Origin: Terriglobia bacterium
Lineage (GTDB): Bacteria > Acidobacteriota > Terriglobia > JAIQFV01
Direction: 5' to 3'
Assembly (NCBI GenBank): GCA_028716525.1
Contig: JAQUPQ010000005.1
Coordinates: 62,001 to 126,000 of the forward strand
DNA length: 64,000 nucleotides
This document shows positions 5,078 through 37,637 of the stretch, in pieces. The notes beneath the pieces are model-generated. The model searched no databases. It worked only from the letters and a program-made list of their open reading frames with translations, and was not told where the DNA came from. The first letter of the stretch is position 1. Each line of letters opens with the position of its first letter. Made by a program: the position numbers and the translations under genes.

Positions 5078-7762
5078 TTAGAACGTGTAGATCAGTGAAA
5101 CGCCTGCGGCATGAATTTTATAAGTGGGCACCCTTTCGTTCGTGGGGAGATAATTCGTACCCGTCCCGAACTGTAATCCCGCGTAAGCCCAGTCGGTATC
5201 CGAGAGCCGTTGGAACATATAAAACACTCGAAGCGAAGCCGCTTTGGTGAGCGTGTAGGTGAAACTCGGCCGCAGCGTGATTTCGTCGTTTCTGAGCGTC
5301 GGGTAATTAGTGGCCGGAATGAAAAATACGGCCGGCGTCCCGGCGGGCAAGGGGGGGGCCGGCGCTGCCTGGGCAAAAGGATTGTTGACGTAGCTCCCGC
5401 CATTGACTGCGGTGTCGGTCCGTGCGCGCGTGTACACGGCCTCGCCCGTCAATTCGAGCTTTCCGGACATCAAATTCTTCATTCGGATGACGAAGCCGGC
5501 GGAATCGATCTTGTCACGGCTATTTTTGGACCAGTTCAGGCACGGATCCATCTTGGCGTTGGCATTTCGCGCTGCGATCGTCGTGAAGCAGCCGCCTGAA
5601 ATGATCGTGTTGCCCGCTTGACCTTGAAATGTCGCGGTGCTGTTGCTGCCATAAGCATCGCCTGCCGTGAGATAACGCTGGTTGTCATAGGTATAGAACA
5701 GATCCGCAACCAAGTTATCACTCGCCACATACGTGAGATCGACACTTGCCGCCCAACTGGTTGCTTTCTGCAAACCGTAGATCGAATCCATGTAATCGTC
5801 GAAGTTAAAATCCCCGGTGCTCTGCAGCGAGAACTTTTCCGACGCTTGCCAATCCAGGGAGGAGCGCACCTTGTGGCGATTTCGATCGGCCACCATATAC
5901 CTTCTCATGCCCACCAATTCATTGATGTTGTTGCGGCTGCCGTAGAGTGACTGCGGCACAATGTTGTTGTTGGGTGAAAAAATGGAGGCGTTGCCGGTGA
6001 GGGGCGCGGGGGGTAAGCCCGCCAAGGGGCCGAACCCGGTAAGCCCCGTCGCGGTCAGGTAGCCCAAAACGCTTGTTGTTGCGCCGCCCGCAGGCACAAA
6101 GTTGGCCATGGGCACCAGCGCCAGGAAAGCATCCTCGTCATATTTGCCCCTGCGCCAGGAATAGGCATAACCCAATCGGGCGTTAAAATTCCCCACCCTG
6201 CTGGTGCGCCACTCCGCTCGCAGCGTGTTTTCATTGGTTACCGGGGCGTCTGCACAATTGATCCACGAGTCCGTGCAGCTGCGGCCGATTCTTTGCCAGT
6301 CATATCCGGCCTCGAGATATTGCCTCTTGCCCACGGAACGCTCACCTTGCAAGTTGAGCTGGTTGACCTGTCTGCTGTAGGCGCGATTGTTATAAATGTT
6401 GGTATTGCTTCCCAGGTTCGCCGGGAGTCCGTCGATGCCGGCAAAGGGTGAGACGCCGCTCTTTGATTCGTTCGCATCCTGGAATAGAAAGATGTTGACC
6501 GGGGTTTGATTGTCACGGTTGTCGAATTTATAGGCTGCGCTGAAGTTCCATTTCTTGCTCGGGCTTGCTGTCAGCTTGGCGTTCACCTTGCTTGAGACCA
6601 CCAACCCGTTGAGTGAAGCGACCGGCAGGCCGAAGGCCAGCTGTCCGTTGGACGCGGTCGAGGGATCCAGAAAAGTGTCGTTTTGTGTGCTGCGGCCGTA
6701 AGATCCGGTCACGACCAGCTTGATCTTGGGTGAAATCTTATAGCCCAAGCTCAAATTGAACTGATTGAATTGATTGCTGGGAGCGCTCGCCATAGTTGCA
6801 GACTTGGTCGGATCGTTCACATCCTGCCAGGTCATGGACTTGACGTGGTTGTTGAAGAACGAACCGTAATAACCGAACGTCACGAAGACTTTTTTGAGCT
6901 TGTAAATGACACTGGCGCTGGCCTGTTCCGTATCCCAGTCCACGCGATCGGGCATGATGATGGCATTCTCACTGACCTGAGATGAAACGGCACCCAGCGC
7001 CTTGACGCCCTCCTTGTGCTCATGGCTGAAGCTCACGGGGATATCCCAATGCAGGTCGGGGCTATAACTGAACCCGGCATCAATTCGGGTGCGCTTGGTC
7101 TTGAGATCGACATTGTGAAAAGCAGGAACGTCGGCCGCCCGTATATTCGCCAGGGCCGCCAGCTGATCGGCCGTGGGTGGAGTCAATACGCCGTTTTTGA
7201 TAACGCTCCCCGTACCCGCAATCGGATCGAACGACCGAAAATTCACGGCGGTGGAACTGACCTGCGGCACCTTGGGGGCAATCCAATTCGACGGCAGAGT
7301 CAGGCTATTGGTACCGGCGCCCAGGTATGGCGTCTGGAAAGTGTCCGAGCGGTTCGCGAGAATTTCCTCGTAACCTATATTGAATCGAAACTGGCCCTGC
7401 TTTCCGAACTCGGCGAACACAAAGCGAGTTCCGAGACCGAGATTGGTTCCGCGGAGGCGCCAGCGCCAGGTACCATCGCTGTCATAGGCAGCCCCGCCTC
7501 GTAGGTCGAAAAAGCCGATGCCGAAGGGGCCTTGATTCTGCAGGCCGTTGTATTCACCAAACTTGAAGGAGTTGTTGCTGACACCGCCAATACCGGCTTC
7601 AACTTTGTTGGTGGGCGTGGTCTGACTCGTCGCAGTGGTTTGCGCCGGTGAGTTCACACCAACGCCGGCCAGTACGGCTGACATCAGAACGAGGGCGATA
7701 AGCGTGCCGCGCAAAACCTGAAGCGAACGGGCCACGTGTTTATTTGTAAGGGTTTCCTTCAT
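5078..7762 (-). CDS. MtrB/PioB-family outer-membrane beta-barrel of a porin-cytochrome conduit
   Basis: This 894-residue protein has a signal peptide (hydrophobic part about residues 18-36). It then has the family entry motif VSNNSFKFGEYNGLQNQG, followed by many alternating amphipathic strands and a terminal strand ending SLIYTF, the aromatic end expected of an outer-membrane barrel. MtrB/PioB proteins sheath a decahaem cytochrome and let electrons cross the outer membrane. Here the partner cytochrome gene lies 27 bases upstream. At 894 residues it is longer than MtrB (about 700) and close to or longer than PioB. GGGAAGGATG precedes the start. No extracellular MtrC-like cytochrome or lipoprotein is visible in the window, so it may be a PioAB/MtoAB-type oxidation conduit or have its surface partner elsewhere. 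Confidence 0.93.
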   Translation of the reverse strand: MKETLTNKHVARSLQVLRGTLIALVLMSAVLAGVGVNSPAQTTATSQTTPTNKVEAGIGGVSNNSFKFGEYNGLQNQGPFGIGFFDLRGGAAYDSDGTWRWRLRGTNLGLGTRFVFAEFGKQGQFRFNIGYEEILANRSDTFQTPYLGAGTNSLTLPSNWIAPKVPQVSSTAVNFRSFDPIAGTGSVIKNGVLTPPTADQLAALANIRAADVPAFHNVDLKTKRTRIDAGFSYSPDLHWDIPVSFSHEHKEGVKALGAVSSQVSENAIIMPDRVDWDTEQASASVIYKLKKVFVTFGYYGSFFNNHVKSMTWQDVNDPTKSATMASAPSNQFNQFNLSLGYKISPKIKLVVTGSYGRSTQNDTFLDPSTASNGQLAFGLPVASLNGLVVSSKVNAKLTASPSKKWNFSAAYKFDNRDNQTPVNIFLFQDANESKSGVSPFAGIDGLPANLGSNTNIYNNRAYSRQVNQLNLQGERSVGKRQYLEAGYDWQRIGRSCTDSWINCADAPVTNENTLRAEWRTSRVGNFNARLGYAYSWRRGKYDEDAFLALVPMANFVPAGGATTSVLGYLTATGLTGFGPLAGLPPAPLTGNASIFSPNNNIVPQSLYGSRNNINELVGMRRYMVADRNRHKVRSSLDWQASEKFSLQSTGDFNFDDYMDSIYGLQKATSWAASVDLTYVASDNLVADLFYTYDNQRYLTAGDAYGSNSTATFQGQAGNTIISGGCFTTIAARNANAKMDPCLNWSKNSRDKIDSAGFVIRMKNLMSGKLELTGEAVYTRARTDTAVNGGSYVNNPFAQAAPAPPLPAGTPAVFFIPATNYPTLRNDEITLRPSFTYTLTKAASLRVFYMFQRLSDTDWAYAGLQFGTGTNYLPTNERVPTYKIHAAGVSLIYTF

Positions 7763-27787: not shown

Positions 27788-28018
27788 ACAATCTCTTCCA
27801 GGACGTGGATACCACCTCCTTCATTCCGGCTTGACACCTCCCCTCTCTCATGGAAGACTTTTACCAATAATGTGAGTGCCTGAGGCTCGCTTAGATCATC
27901 CGGTTTGACCGCCGATTGATCCCTGTCGTAATCGAACAAGAAGCGAGTCCACGAGAACTCTTTTCCCGCCGACGGCATGGGGCGGGAGGCAAATTCTTCA
28001 AGCGAGGCGGGAGGCCTT

Positions 28019-29287
28019 ATGCGATTCATTCATTATCTGACGATCGTCATTTTTCTTGCAGCCATGTTCGTCCCCACCGTCAATCCGGCCGATACGTGTG
28101 TCGGATGCCACACCCAAGCGACGCCCAAGATTGTGGCTGATTGGCAAGCCAGCAAGCACAGCCGGAACAACATTGATTGTTCTTCCTGTCACGGTGATCA
28201 ACACCAGACAGCCACTGATTTTTCCAAAGCTCAAATTCCCACCTATAAGACCTGCGCTCCTTGTCATGACAAACAAGCGGGTCAGTTCTCCAAGGGCAAG
28301 CATGCCCTGGCCTGGGCCTCAATGACGGCTATGCCGACCATCCATTGGCAGCCCATGATGTTGACCGACGGCATGAAAGGCTGCGGGGGATGCCATAAAA
28401 TCGGAATCAAATCAGAAAAAGAGATTCAGCAATTACAAACCGAAGGCAACACTTTTGGCAACGCTTCTTGCGACGCCTGTCATACGCGCCACACCTTCTC
28501 GGTTCAGGAGGCTCGGCAGCCGCAGGCGTGCGAGACCTGCCATATGGGTTTCGATCATCCTCAATGGGAAATGTATTCGGCCTCAAAACACGGCGTTCGC
28601 TCTGAGATGAAACAAATGGGCGTTTTGCCCGCCAGCACGGCGGCCCCGACTTGCCAAACCTGTCACATGCCGGAAGGTGATCACGCCGTTCATACCAGTT
28701 GGGGTTTTCTCGCGGTCCGACTTCCGATGCCGGAAGATGCGCAGTGGGCTTCCGACCGGGCCACGATTTTGCAGGCGCTGGACGTTTTAGATCCCACAGG
28801 AAAGCCCACCGCTCGACTCGACGTGGTGAAGGCGGCGGATGTGGCTCGGCTCACTCAACAAGATTGGCAGAAGGATCGCGATCGCATGCTGCAGACCTGC
28901 GCTCAGTGTCATTCGGCCGGCTTTGCCAAAACCGAATTGGAAAAAGGCGACAAGCTCATCCGCGACGCCGATCATCTCATGGCACAGGCTATTCGCATCG
29001 TCGCCGGGTTGTACAAGGATGGGATCGTGCAACAGCCTAAGAACTACGCTTACGCCTTCCCGGACCTTCTGACATTTCACGACGCCCCAACCGTCATCGA
29101 GCAACGGCTCTTTGTGATGTTCCTGGAACACCGCATGCGGACGTTTCAAGGCGCCTTTCACAACAATCCGGATTATGCCCTGTGGTACGGCTGGAGCGAG
29201 ATGCAGCGCGATTTGACGGAAATCAAATCGATGGCGGAGGAAATGCGAAGAACGGCGCCGCCTCCTGTGGCCGCAGCATCAAACTGA
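28019..29287 (+). CDS. Octaheme cytochrome of the hydroxylamine-oxidoreductase (HAO) family
   Basis: About 422 residues with a signal peptide and eight CxxCH sites (CVGCH, CSSCH, CAPCH, CGGCH, CDACH, CETCH, CQTCH, CAQCH). The C-terminal HAO signature is present: FQGAFHNNPDYALWYGWSEM. HAO-family enzymes oxidise hydroxylamine or hydrazine, or reduce nitrite/hydroxylamine when the cross-linking Tyr is absent. I could not decide from sequence alone whether that Tyr is present. The start at 28019 follows GGCGGGAGGCCTT. No ammonia-oxidation genes and no HaoC/NrfH-type quinol oxidase are in the window. An intrinsic terminator follows the stop. Confidence 0.92.
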   Translation: MRFIHYLTIVIFLAAMFVPTVNPADTCVGCHTQATPKIVADWQASKHSRNNIDCSSCHGDQHQTATDFSKAQIPTYKTCAPCHDKQAGQFSKGKHALAWASMTAMPTIHWQPMMLTDGMKGCGGCHKIGIKSEKEIQQLQTEGNTFGNASCDACHTRHTFSVQEARQPQACETCHMGFDHPQWEMYSASKHGVRSEMKQMGVLPASTAAPTCQTCHMPEGDHAVHTSWGFLAVRLPMPEDAQWASDRATILQALDVLDPTGKPTARLDVVKAADVARLTQQDWQKDRDRMLQTCAQCHSAGFAKTELEKGDKLIRDADHLMAQAIRIVAGLYKDGIVQQPKNYAYAFPDLLTFHDAPTVIEQRLFVMFLEHRMRTFQGAFHNNPDYALWYGWSEMQRDLTEIKSMAEEMRRTAPPPVAAASN

Positions 29288-34123: not shown

Positions 34124-36370
34124 CTATCCGGGCATCTCATAAAGGCGATCGACATAGTGTGTGAAAGGTTGGAAGGCCTCGAGGAGTGCCTGCTGATATT
34201 CCCCGATGTCGTAGCCGCGCCAGGCTTCCCACAATGTCCAAGCGCGGACGCGATCGTCGGGCAGCGCCGAATCCGTGCGGCACAGCAGGTATTGAATATT
34301 TTCACCGGCGCGCAACTGCACGCCGGCCCGGTCCAACTGCCGCGCCACAATGGCGGTGTGGTTATTTTTGGTGTAAGCCTCGGGTTGGCGCGTCAATCGC
34401 CGCGTGATCAGCAACTCTTCCGGATTCATATCCCCTTTCGTGACACCATCCAAGTATCGATTTAACACTTCGCGCGCCTGCTCGAGCTTCACGCAGTAAC
34501 TCTCAAAATCGCGCGCTTCCGCCAGGATGTGGAGCACTTCGTTTTGCATGCGCGCCACCACACGCGGCGTGTCGTGTCGGCGGCACTCCAGCCCGCGGAT
34601 CTTCACGTGGTCCTCGTCCACGACGCAAAAAAAGCGATTGGGAACCGGGATCTCGGCATACTGTTTGGACGGCAGAAACACCACATACCGATAGACCGCT
34701 TCCACGGCCAACGGCAGGTTGGTGATGGATTCAATCTCCACCGCGAGCCGCTCGTAATCCTCCGACGTGGCGCCTTCTTTCTGCACGTAAAGCGAATCGA
34801 CCAGCGCGTGCAGCACGCGATAGCCGCGCTCCTCGGCAGCTTCCTTGGCCACCAACAGTTTCTCGCGGGCGACGGCGTTGATGGCTTCATGAGCTTCAAT
34901 TTTTCCAAAGCGCGCGTTCTTGTAGCCGGTGTAACCGAAACAACACACCAGCAGCCACTTCAAGGCGCTGCGCCGCAGCAGATACGACGGCGCTCGAGCC
35001 GCATTCTCGCGCGCCGCTTGTTTATAGCGCTGCCGTTTGGCGATCAAACGCTCCACCACGCGGCTGGTGATGCCGCGCCGCCGGGTGCAGATGCGGTAAC
35101 CCAATTCCGGAATGCGCGGCGCTTCCGGACAGCAGGCGCAGTTCACCGTCTCCGGCGAAACATTGAACCGCGCCATGATGCTCGGGTACTCACTCACAAA
35201 ATCGAGCTCGCAGACGTTCTCAAAAAAACCCAGGCGTGGCGGAAACACCAGGCCGCCCCGGTCGGCGCTGAGCAACTCATCGGGATGTTTGGGGCTTTCG
35301 GGCTCGGCTTTCTGCTCCGGAATCAACACGCCGTCGTGATAAGCCAGTTCCATCTGCAAATGCGAAATACCGGTGCCGGTGGTGGTGCGGCAGGCGTATT
35401 GCACCGGGAGCTTGGTGAGCCGCGCCAATTCCCAGAGGCCGTCGAGCTCACACTGATGCGTGATGAAAGAATTTTGGGTATCGACATGCAGCCGTCCGAA
35501 GAGCGTGGTGGCGCTTTCTTTAAAAAGAATGCGCCCGTAGCTCATGTAACTGCGGGCCCGGCTCCGCTGAATGGGCAGGGGATCGCGGTTCAAACTCAAT
35601 CGAACGCCGCGTTTTTCGGCCTGCCCCATCAAGGCCGGAAACAACGTGGAGTCGCCCCACTCCGTCAAGATAATGTCGGGATCATGCCGGCGCAGCAATC
35701 GTTCAAAGCCGCACACCACCGGCTCTTCGGAGTCGTCGAGCAGCAGCGTGCGGGAGGCGGAGAAACGCTCGCCCTCCCACCGGCTCACTTCCACCTCCAG
35801 GGCTCCGCGGCGGCCGTGTTGAGGATCCACCCGCGAAAGTCCTTCCAGCCGCAGCGACAGCATCGTCAACGGCGGCAGCTCGAAATCCAGCACCCACTCA
35901 TCGTCGCGGCAGTGCAGCGCCTTGACGCCAAGTGTTTCCCGGCCCGCGCTGCGCGCCTCTTCACCCGCCTCGACCTCCACTTCCACCCGGGCCAGTGGAA
36001 AAACTTTTTTTTGCCAGCAATACAGCGGCGCCAGCATTAAATCGGAATTAAATAGCTGCAGGGTGGAATCAAGCCGGCGCACCAGGCGCGCCAGCCCGAA
36101 AAATTGGAGGGGATGCGGCACGCACACTTCCAGCACCCGGAGCGGCTGATCCTCCCAGAGGTTCCGCTTCTCCGTAAAACTGCACGCCACGGGCGCGCGG
36201 GCTTCCAAAAGCGGCGACAACCGCGAGAGCTGCCGTTCCCGTCCGGCCACGTAGAAAGAAGGCGCGAAGGAGCGGTCCAGCAGGCGGTATCGCCGGCCTT
36301 CAGAGGTGATCAACCACAGCGCCATCCCGTGATGCGTCGGGTAGAGATCGAGGAGCCATCCATGCAGCAT
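34124..36370 (-). CDS. Divergent family-B DNA polymerase
   Basis: About 748 residues. Motif A is ELDFVSEYPSIMARF (about residue 390; the catalytic Asp is kept). Motif B is a KWLLVCCFGYTGYKNARFG variant of Kx3NSxYG (about 473). Motif C is LHALVDSLYV (about 523), where the usual DTD reads LVD, so only the second Asp remains. The exonuclease part has a DFE like ExoI (about 160), but ExoII and ExoIII look eroded. Primer extension is possible, proofreading doubtful. The start is taken at ATG 36370; the frame opens further upstream but overlaps the preceding gene. It is the last gene of a three-gene operon with a RecA-like protein. Confidence 0.85.
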   Translation of the reverse strand: MLHGWLLDLYPTHHGMALWLITSEGRRYRLLDRSFAPSFYVAGRERQLSRLSPLLEARAPVACSFTEKRNLWEDQPLRVLEVCVPHPLQFFGLARLVRRLDSTLQLFNSDLMLAPLYCWQKKVFPLARVEVEVEAGEEARSAGRETLGVKALHCRDDEWVLDFELPPLTMLSLRLEGLSRVDPQHGRRGALEVEVSRWEGERFSASRTLLLDDSEEPVVCGFERLLRRHDPDIILTEWGDSTLFPALMGQAEKRGVRLSLNRDPLPIQRSRARSYMSYGRILFKESATTLFGRLHVDTQNSFITHQCELDGLWELARLTKLPVQYACRTTTGTGISHLQMELAYHDGVLIPEQKAEPESPKHPDELLSADRGGLVFPPRLGFFENVCELDFVSEYPSIMARFNVSPETVNCACCPEAPRIPELGYRICTRRRGITSRVVERLIAKRQRYKQAARENAARAPSYLLRRSALKWLLVCCFGYTGYKNARFGKIEAHEAINAVAREKLLVAKEAAEERGYRVLHALVDSLYVQKEGATSEDYERLAVEIESITNLPLAVEAVYRYVVFLPSKQYAEIPVPNRFFCVVDEDHVKIRGLECRRHDTPRVVARMQNEVLHILAEARDFESYCVKLEQAREVLNRYLDGVTKGDMNPEELLITRRLTRQPEAYTKNNHTAIVARQLDRAGVQLRAGENIQYLLCRTDSALPDDRVRAWTLWEAWRGYDIGEYQQALLEAFQPFTHYVDRLYEMPG

Positions 36371-36623
36371 CAAGGTGAATCCCCAAAAGCGCTTCGATTC
36401 TTCGCAGGCGCATTTCGTGATCGAGCGCCACCGCCACCTGGATGCCGTCCATGGCATGCGCCGGAAATTGATAGGTGCACGCCTGAATGTACAAACGGAC
36501 GCGCTGAAACATCAGCTCGAGCTGTTCCCGTTCTTCGCGGCGAAGGGCGCGGCCGAAGGTGCGCTCCCAGCGTTCCAATTCCTGTTCAATTAAATCGCGA
36601 AACGTGGCAACGGTTCGTCCCAT
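36300..36623 (-). CDS. Small protein of the polymerase operon, unknown
   Basis: A 107-residue protein rich in Arg/Glu/Leu, probably helical (FRDLIEQELERWERTFGR, REEREQLELMFQRVRLYI). Its ATG lies three bases after the RecA-like stop, with GAGGTGA as ribosome site. Its 3' end overlaps the predicted polymerase start by about 70 bases in another frame, so either the polymerase starts later or the genes truly overlap. Not assigned to a family; it may be a polymerase accessory. Confidence 0.7.
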   Translation of the reverse strand: MGRTVATFRDLIEQELERWERTFGRALRREEREQLELMFQRVRLYIQACTYQFPAHAMDGIQVAVALDHEMRLRRIEALLGIHLDAAWMAPRSLPDASRDGAVVDHL

Positions 36624-36626
36624 AAA

Positions 36627-37283
36627 TCACCTCGTCACATGACGTTCGACCGGCCGAAGCGGGCGCGGCAAATCCGGCGCGTCCCCGGGCGCCTGCAGAC
36701 GCCATTGAATGTGGCCCTCGAGGTCGGCCGCACATTTCCGCCGTTCCGCTGCCAGGGCCCGAACTCGAAGAAGAAACGGCCGACGGGCCGGCAGCGGCGA
36801 AAAACTTTCGGCCGAAGAAAACAGCGCCGCCGTCAAAGGCCGCTCTCCCTGCTGAAGCTCGTCGAGATGCTCCAGCGCCTGGTCGAAAGCCGCGCGCGCC
36901 GGCTCGTCGCGCACGTCTTCATCAAAATAAAGCTCCGGCAGAGCGGTAATCATGAGCACCTGCGCCGGAAAGGTTTCCAGAAAACGGGGAACGCGGGCGA
37001 TGAGTTCGGTCAGCTGAAAACAGGTGAAGGCCCGGGCAATTTCGATTTCCCGATTGAGCTGTTCAAAACCAATTCCACGCTGTTCGCCCAAGCGCTTCAT
37101 CAAACGCGGATCGACGGCATTGGCCCCGTCCAGAAACAGAATTTTTTTGCCCTCTTGAATCAGCCCGGGCAGGAAATAATGACTGAGGCGGGCCGTCGTC
37201 CGCTCCCCTTCAAAGAGAATCAGTCCGCGGGCCGGCAGGCTCCACGGCTTACTTTCAGCTTTCGATACCTCGACGCTCGTCAT
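36627..37283 (-). CDS. RecA-like protein lacking a Walker A motif
   Basis: About 218 residues with RecA-core-like order: ARGLILFEGERTTARLSHYFL in the P-loop position, KILFLDGANAVDPRLM as a Walker B-like strand, AQVLMITALPELYFDE, and a C-terminal arginine-rich tail. The P-loop reads GERTTARLSHY instead of GxxxxGK(T/S), so ATP binding is doubtful. GGAGGAG supports the start (ATG 37283, or GTG 37286). It heads a tight operon with the small protein and the divergent polymerase, and is divergent from the SAM-riboswitch unit. Compare ImuA-type proteins, which are RecA-like partners of translesion polymerases. Confidence 0.72.
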   Translation of the reverse strand: MTSVEVSKAESKPWSLPARGLILFEGERTTARLSHYFLPGLIQEGKKILFLDGANAVDPRLMKRLGEQRGIGFEQLNREIEIARAFTCFQLTELIARVPRFLETFPAQVLMITALPELYFDEDVRDEPARAAFDQALEHLDELQQGERPLTAALFSSAESFSPLPARRPFLLRVRALAAERRKCAADLEGHIQWRLQAPGDAPDLPRPLRPVERHVTR

Positions 37284-37424
37284 CACTCCTCCACCGTTTC
37301 AGCAAAAAATCATCATAGGCGAATAAAAAGCGAAAGTCAAGCAAAGCAAAAATGTGTCTCCGGGGGGCGTTTCCTGTTGACATCCGCGATACTGAAGTTG
37401 TAAGGTGACGCTTCTTTTGGCGCG

Positions 37425-37487: not shown

Positions 37488-37525
37488 AAGCCTTGCGCAG
37501 ATTGGCGCAAGGCTTTTCTGTTTTT
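37488..37525 (+). terminator. Intrinsic terminator after the first SAM-II-type aptamer
   Basis: AAGCCTTGCGC (37488-37498) pairs with GCGCAAGGCTT (37505-37515), an 11-bp perfect stem, followed by TTCTGTTTTT. Its place directly after the aptamer suggests transcription attenuation. I do not see an obvious antiterminator. Confidence 0.88.
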
Positions 37526-37600: not shown

Positions 37601-37608
37601 TGTTTCGA

Positions 37609-37637
37609 AACCCCACGCCGTTTAGCGTGGGGTTTTT
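37609..37637 (+). terminator. Intrinsic terminator after the second SAM-II-type aptamer
   Basis: AACCCCACGC (37609-37618) pairs with GCGTGGGGTT (37625-37634) over a six-base loop and runs into TTTTTC. It lies about 70 bases before the ATG of the next gene and would stop transcription in the leader. Confidence 0.9.

Follow-up and report, generated by a model that had tools for sequence, protein, structure and literature searches.

A PolB2 mutasome operon in a Terriglobia bacterium, with a probable LexA-type promoter element and an orphan iRadA paralogue

What is the function of a divergent family-B DNA polymerase encoded next to a small protein and a recombinase homolog that has no P-loop? A first-pass annotation of 64,000 nucleotides from a Terriglobia bacterium (contig JAQUPQ010000005.1, positions 62,001 to 126,000; "the window") described such a three-gene cassette and proposed that it might be a translesion or repair system lacking a standard name. 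Three adjacent minus-strand open reading frames do lie at 34124-37286 of the window: 36627-37286, 36300-36623 and a long frame ending at 34124. The features of the locus are as follows.

36627..37286, minus strand: iRadA, 219 aa, which opens the operon; a P-loop-less member of the RadA/Rad51 family (profile and motif evidence)
36300..36623, minus strand: PPB2, the small partner, 107 aa, with an MGRT N-terminal arm
34124..36370, minus strand: PolB2 (group G2), a family-B DNA polymerase, 748 aa, its start moved from 36457 to 36370
37316..37334, minus strand: probable LexA box TTCGCTTTTTATTCGCCTA, a direct repeat with a period of 11, its exact pattern also found upstream of the organism's own lexA
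37312..37340, minus strand: sigma-70-like promoter TTGACT-N17-TATGAT, matching 10/12 consensus positions, spacer 17

The first ATG of the polymerase frame (36457) is 29 codons too early; the best start is the ATG at 36370 (MLHGWLLDLYP), placed there because homologs align from GW[IL][LF]D[LV]YP. Given this start, PPB2 and PolB2 overlap by 71 nt. iRadA begins at GTG 37286 or ATG 37283.

The system already has a name. Judged by its sequence features, the cassette is a PolB2 mutasome operon (iRadA-PPB2-PolB2) of bacterial group G2. PolB2 mutasomes were first known from archaea. An operon of 'inactivated' PolB2, arCOG07300 and inactivated RadA, in some bacteria also with lexA, was predicted in 2014 (PMC4104785), and in 2020 the bacterial PolB members, which branch within archaeal B2, were classed as group G2; their hallmarks are a motif C with a single Asp, the D(K/R) motif, a non-conserved ExoI and a missing ExoIII (PMC7544198). 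The names PolB2, PPB2 and iRadA come from a 2025 modelling study, which noted the MGRT arm, gave iRadA-PPB2-PolB2 as the sole gene order reported in bacteria, and predicted, by modelling only, a heteropentamer of 1:1:3 (PMC11791011). Every defining sequence-level feature of a PolB2 mutasome that we examined is present in the window: the gene order, the MGRT arm, LVDS (one Asp) in motif C, the D(K/R) motif, the loss of ExoI, and a P-loop-less RadA/Rad51-family protein. The cassette itself is thus known; what is new is its regulatory wiring, its distribution, and an orphan iRadA paralogue elsewhere in the genome. In the literature we found no expression or biochemical data on any bacterial PolB2 mutasome member.

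Are the three genes consistently linked? A single-sequence search of the genome contig collection found no relatives; an alignment-based search of the genome collection found 554 stretches encoding relatives, of which 80, from several phyla, were kept. Relatives of the operon occur in Acidobacteriota, Nitrospirota, Chloroflexota, Armatimonadota, Ignavibacteriota and other phyla, and lexA adjoins the operon in Nitrospirota and at some other loci. The polymerase is present in 12 of 61 related genomes. As in the window, all three genes stand in the order iRadA-PPB2-PolB2 on a single strand at 76/94 PolB2 loci, a set in which a few sites are represented twice. At 17 further loci the upstream sequence is shorter than 1.5 kb and one or both partners are missing. 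Homologs are thus not scattered without their neighbors, the outcome that the first-pass annotation had named as refuting its reading. The one exception is an Ignavibacteriales locus (L082), where neither iRadA nor PPB2 was found in 3.9 kb of upstream sequence.

The polymerase has a single significant Pfam match (DNA_pol_B, E=1.8e-30); it also matches NCBIfam type-B polymerase models with E-values down to 2.5e-114, below their curated cut-offs, and the nearest solved structures are archaeal PolB enzymes. The motifs reported at first pass were borne out. The motif A Asp is kept in ELDFVSEYPSIM (D390 of the 748-aa form, window 35201-35203), and motif C is HALVDS (H521-A-L-V-D525-S), in which only the second Asp is kept (D525, window 34796-34798). 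The D(K/R) motif is D370-R371, its Asp being invariant in a nine-sequence alignment, and D(K/R)GG is present at 82/94 PolB2 loci. Reading the ExoI region of the same alignment by eye, we found no equivalent of the ExoI DxE. The only hint of a clamp motif in this PolB2 is a weak QALL, with no canonical QLxLF. A role in anti-phage defence was considered and rejected: the sole PADLOC hit, to a homing-endonuclease model lying across the polymerase palm, is read as an artefact, since that model includes an intein-bearing PolB.

The first gene was described as RecA-like without a P-loop, and RadA/Rad51-like is more exact: the family profile matches RadA/Rad51 structures in PDB at E=3.9e-12, and Walker A is absent from the window protein and from all homologs (0/77). 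In its RAFTCFQ block R85, T88 and Q91 are invariant. At 219 aa there is no room for the N-terminal helical domain, which the protein presumably lacks. An ImuA identity is not favored, given the RadA/Rad51 profile match and the location in a PolB2 operon. The window iRadA has no canonical QLxLF clamp tail; a clamp-binding motif in iRadA or PolB2 occurs only in a fraction of PolB2 mutasome members. PPB2, of which the source genome has one copy, begins MGRTVATFRDL, and 75/82 homologs start with MGRT or VGRT. A PDB search with PPB2 gave no match.

How is the operon regulated? The first-pass annotation had suggested looking for a LexA site upstream of 37283, and a probable one is there. The best sigma-70-like promoter upstream of iRadA has TTGACT at 37340 and TATGAT ending at 37312, and its 17-nt spacer, TTCGCTTTTTATTCGCC, is filled by a direct repeat, TTCGC-N6-TTCGCC, of period 11. 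With its CCTA tail (TTCGC-N6-TTCGCCTA) the element has exactly three copies in the 4.2-Mb genome, one ahead of this operon, one ahead of lexA and one ahead of a second iRadA gene. TTCGC-N6-TTCGC precedes 24/27 acidobacterial PolB2 operons with enough upstream sequence, versus 0/34 in other phyla. The element also precedes lexA in several families of relatives (the count, 19/54, is of alignment rows, in which many loci appear more than once), and dnaE2 at two loci (L116, L117). The direct repeat is therefore probably the LexA box of this lineage, and from this placement we infer LexA control of the operon in the source bacterium. In Sulfolobales, PolB2 mutasome expression has been shown to be DNA-damage-inducible. 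A search of titles and abstracts of the open-access literature found no published description of the TTCGC-N6-TTCGCC element.

Could the repeat instead be a general promoter feature of these bacteria, and no LexA operator? It lies between the -35 and -10 hexamers, so that its conservation could partly reflect promoter structure, and the pattern was first noticed at the operon and its relatives and searched for afterwards. We nevertheless consider this reading, which bears on regulation only, improbable: there are only three exact CCTA-tailed copies in 4.2 Mb (before lexA, the window iRadA and the second iRadA), the lexA genes of two families (f3 and f8) have other upstream sequences whereas the element stands before lexA across several families, and the pattern outnumbers its reversed control across 61 genomes.

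The element also occurs in relatives upstream of DinB/YfiT-like and SRAP-like genes, named by eye (L106, L179, L128), which would widen the likely SOS regulon. In the source genome a one-mismatch inverted copy (G000:C40:12517-12535; L102 1501-1519) lies about 85 bp upstream of a radical-SAM gene, by eye of the spore-photoproduct-lyase type. Two strong terminator-like hairpins (37488-37515 and 37607-37636) lie between the operon and a divergent threonine synthase gene.

Does the operon stand in for the better known ImuA-ImuB-DnaE2 mutasome? In 200 genomes of the class, a DnaE2 model scored above cut-off in 102 and PolB2 was clearly present in 34, with both in only two, a count in which contig ends interrupt some of the DnaE2 genes. 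This avoidance has a Fisher p of 1e-9 ignoring phylogeny. The first 61 of these genomes include none with both genes. Within family f4 there are likewise no genomes with both (p=0.005); within families f6 and f7 the exclusion is not significant. The pattern fits alternative SOS mutasomes, on statistics that ignore kinship, and the near-exclusion makes functional replacement testable. In the source genome itself the single DnaE match scores below the DnaE2 cut-off, and the single Y-family polymerase gene adjoins lexA. With its probable LexA box, in a genome with no DnaE2 match above cut-off and just one Y-family polymerase, the window operon is a candidate for the main SOS mutasome of this organism.

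The first-pass annotation had likened the cassette to ImuA-ImuB-DnaE2 in logic, and the likeness is sound: both comprise a P-loop-less recombinase homolog, a partner and an error-prone polymerase, here of family B. They share a promoter element, which in relatives stands before dnaE2, and are largely alternative in the class. The ImuA-ImuB-DnaE2 system differs in having a C-family polymerase and an inactive Y-family partner, and the only homology between the two systems is the remote one of RecA to Rad51; the cassette, having a family-B polymerase, does not encode the DnaE2 and inactive Y-family ImuB that define it. The Sulfolobus dpo2 operon (PolB2, iRadA, and PPB2 = arCOG07300) is a closer counterpart, with the same three families, MGRT arm, D(K/R), single-Asp motif C and lost ExoI; the window operon, by contrast, has a bacterial host, the bacterial order iRadA-PPB2-PolB2, and probable LexA control in place of archaeal damage regulators. 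Bacterial G2 operons such as that of Leptospirillum ferriphilum (PolB2, arCOG07300 homolog, inactivated radA, lexA; PMC4104785) share the families and the SOS link, but the window operon has no adjoining lexA and is linked through its promoter element. The Pol V mutasome (UmuC, UmuD', RecA) has a similar proposed architecture (PMC11791011), although with a Y-family polymerase, a different small subunit and an active RecA. Eukaryotic Pol zeta is likewise a B-family extender without proofreading, of a different clade and with different subunits.

What might the three proteins do? Sulfolobus Dpo2, an archaeal PolB2 whose motif C likewise has one Asp, is active and works as an extender polymerase on mispaired ends (PMC8764526), so by analogy the change in motif C is no sign of an inactive enzyme. 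By the same analogy the most likely function is SOS-induced translesion synthesis, mainly extension past lesions, as for Dpo2. DNA damage would lead to LexA cleavage, freeing the promoter at 37312-37340, and iRadA, PPB2 and PolB2 would be made together. PolB2, without proofreading, would extend primer ends that are mismatched or lie opposite a lesion; a PPB2 trimer would put its MGRT arm near the PolB2 active site; and iRadA would contact PolB2 in the manner of adjoining RadA subunits and might dock the polymerase at damaged DNA. Taken whole, this account of a bacterial G2 operon with a LexA-freed promoter, proteins made together and an extender working past lesions is in our estimate very likely correct.

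The operon might alternatively serve recombination or replication restart, with iRadA modulating RecA filaments and PolB2 extending recombination intermediates. That iRadA is a RadA/Rad51 homolog would suit such a role, as would the existence of orphan iRadA genes, close to lexA or controlled by the same type of promoter element, that have no polymerase with them. We think it decidedly unlikely, however, because in archaea damage-induced targeted mutagenesis requires PolB2 (as stated in PMC11791011) and because PolB2 is rarely found in the same genome as DnaE2, a mutagenic polymerase. That PolB2 is catalytically dead, with the three proteins making up a structural or regulatory assembly that acts in replication or at stalled forks, was the first proposal for the family. 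Motif C has a single Asp, ExoI is lost, and early papers inferred inactivation (PMC2527604; PMC4104785). We think this very unlikely, however: across nine aligned sequences there is no variation in the Asp of motif A, the Lys of motif B, or the His and Asp of motif C, and the archaeal single-Asp enzyme is active (PMC8764526).

Translesion extension by a complex of the three proteins being the preferred reading, what is the second iRadA for? This orphan (G000:C2:81526-82337; L098 1501-2315, L162 5527-6338) has the exact LexA-type element in its promoter, and neither PPB2 nor PolB2 adjoins it; the source genome, 96.5% complete, yielded no further copy of either gene. Its C-terminus, SRQLRLF, is a beta-clamp-like motif that the window iRadA does not have. 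In the PolB2 tree the window sequence falls among polymerases from a different family of the class, f4 (SH-aLRT 98), whereas the PolB2 of the two other genomes in the source organism's own family is distant and lies outside the main acidobacterial clade. In the iRadA tree the orphan clusters with the iRadA from these two genomes (99). Both trees are quick ones made without an archaeal outgroup; for the transfer of PolB2 from archaea to bacteria we rely on published work. On the simplest reading, an f4-like donor supplied the window operon, and an older operon shrank until only its iRadA was left.

A broader proposal would combine these points: the acidobacterial PolB2 mutasome would be a LexA-controlled replacement of ImuA-ImuB-DnaE2, acquired here from another family, while the older iRadA survives as a separate SOS gene whose QLRLF tail could provide a beta-clamp tether in trans for a mutasome with no clear tether in its own subunits. 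We regard the combination as rather doubtful. The orphan nonetheless raises the question of what role an inactive recombinase homolog has without its polymerase. In one genome of family f3, lexA is followed directly by an iRadA-like gene (G004, L178 6897-8071), with no PPB2 or PolB2 nearby, and weaker iRadA-like matches lie near lexA at three other loci (L133, L138, L143).

Elsewhere in the window, MtrB/PioB outer-membrane porin and cytochrome c or multihaem cytochrome genes (5078-7762, 1144-2472 and 27977-29287) suggest extracellular electron transfer.
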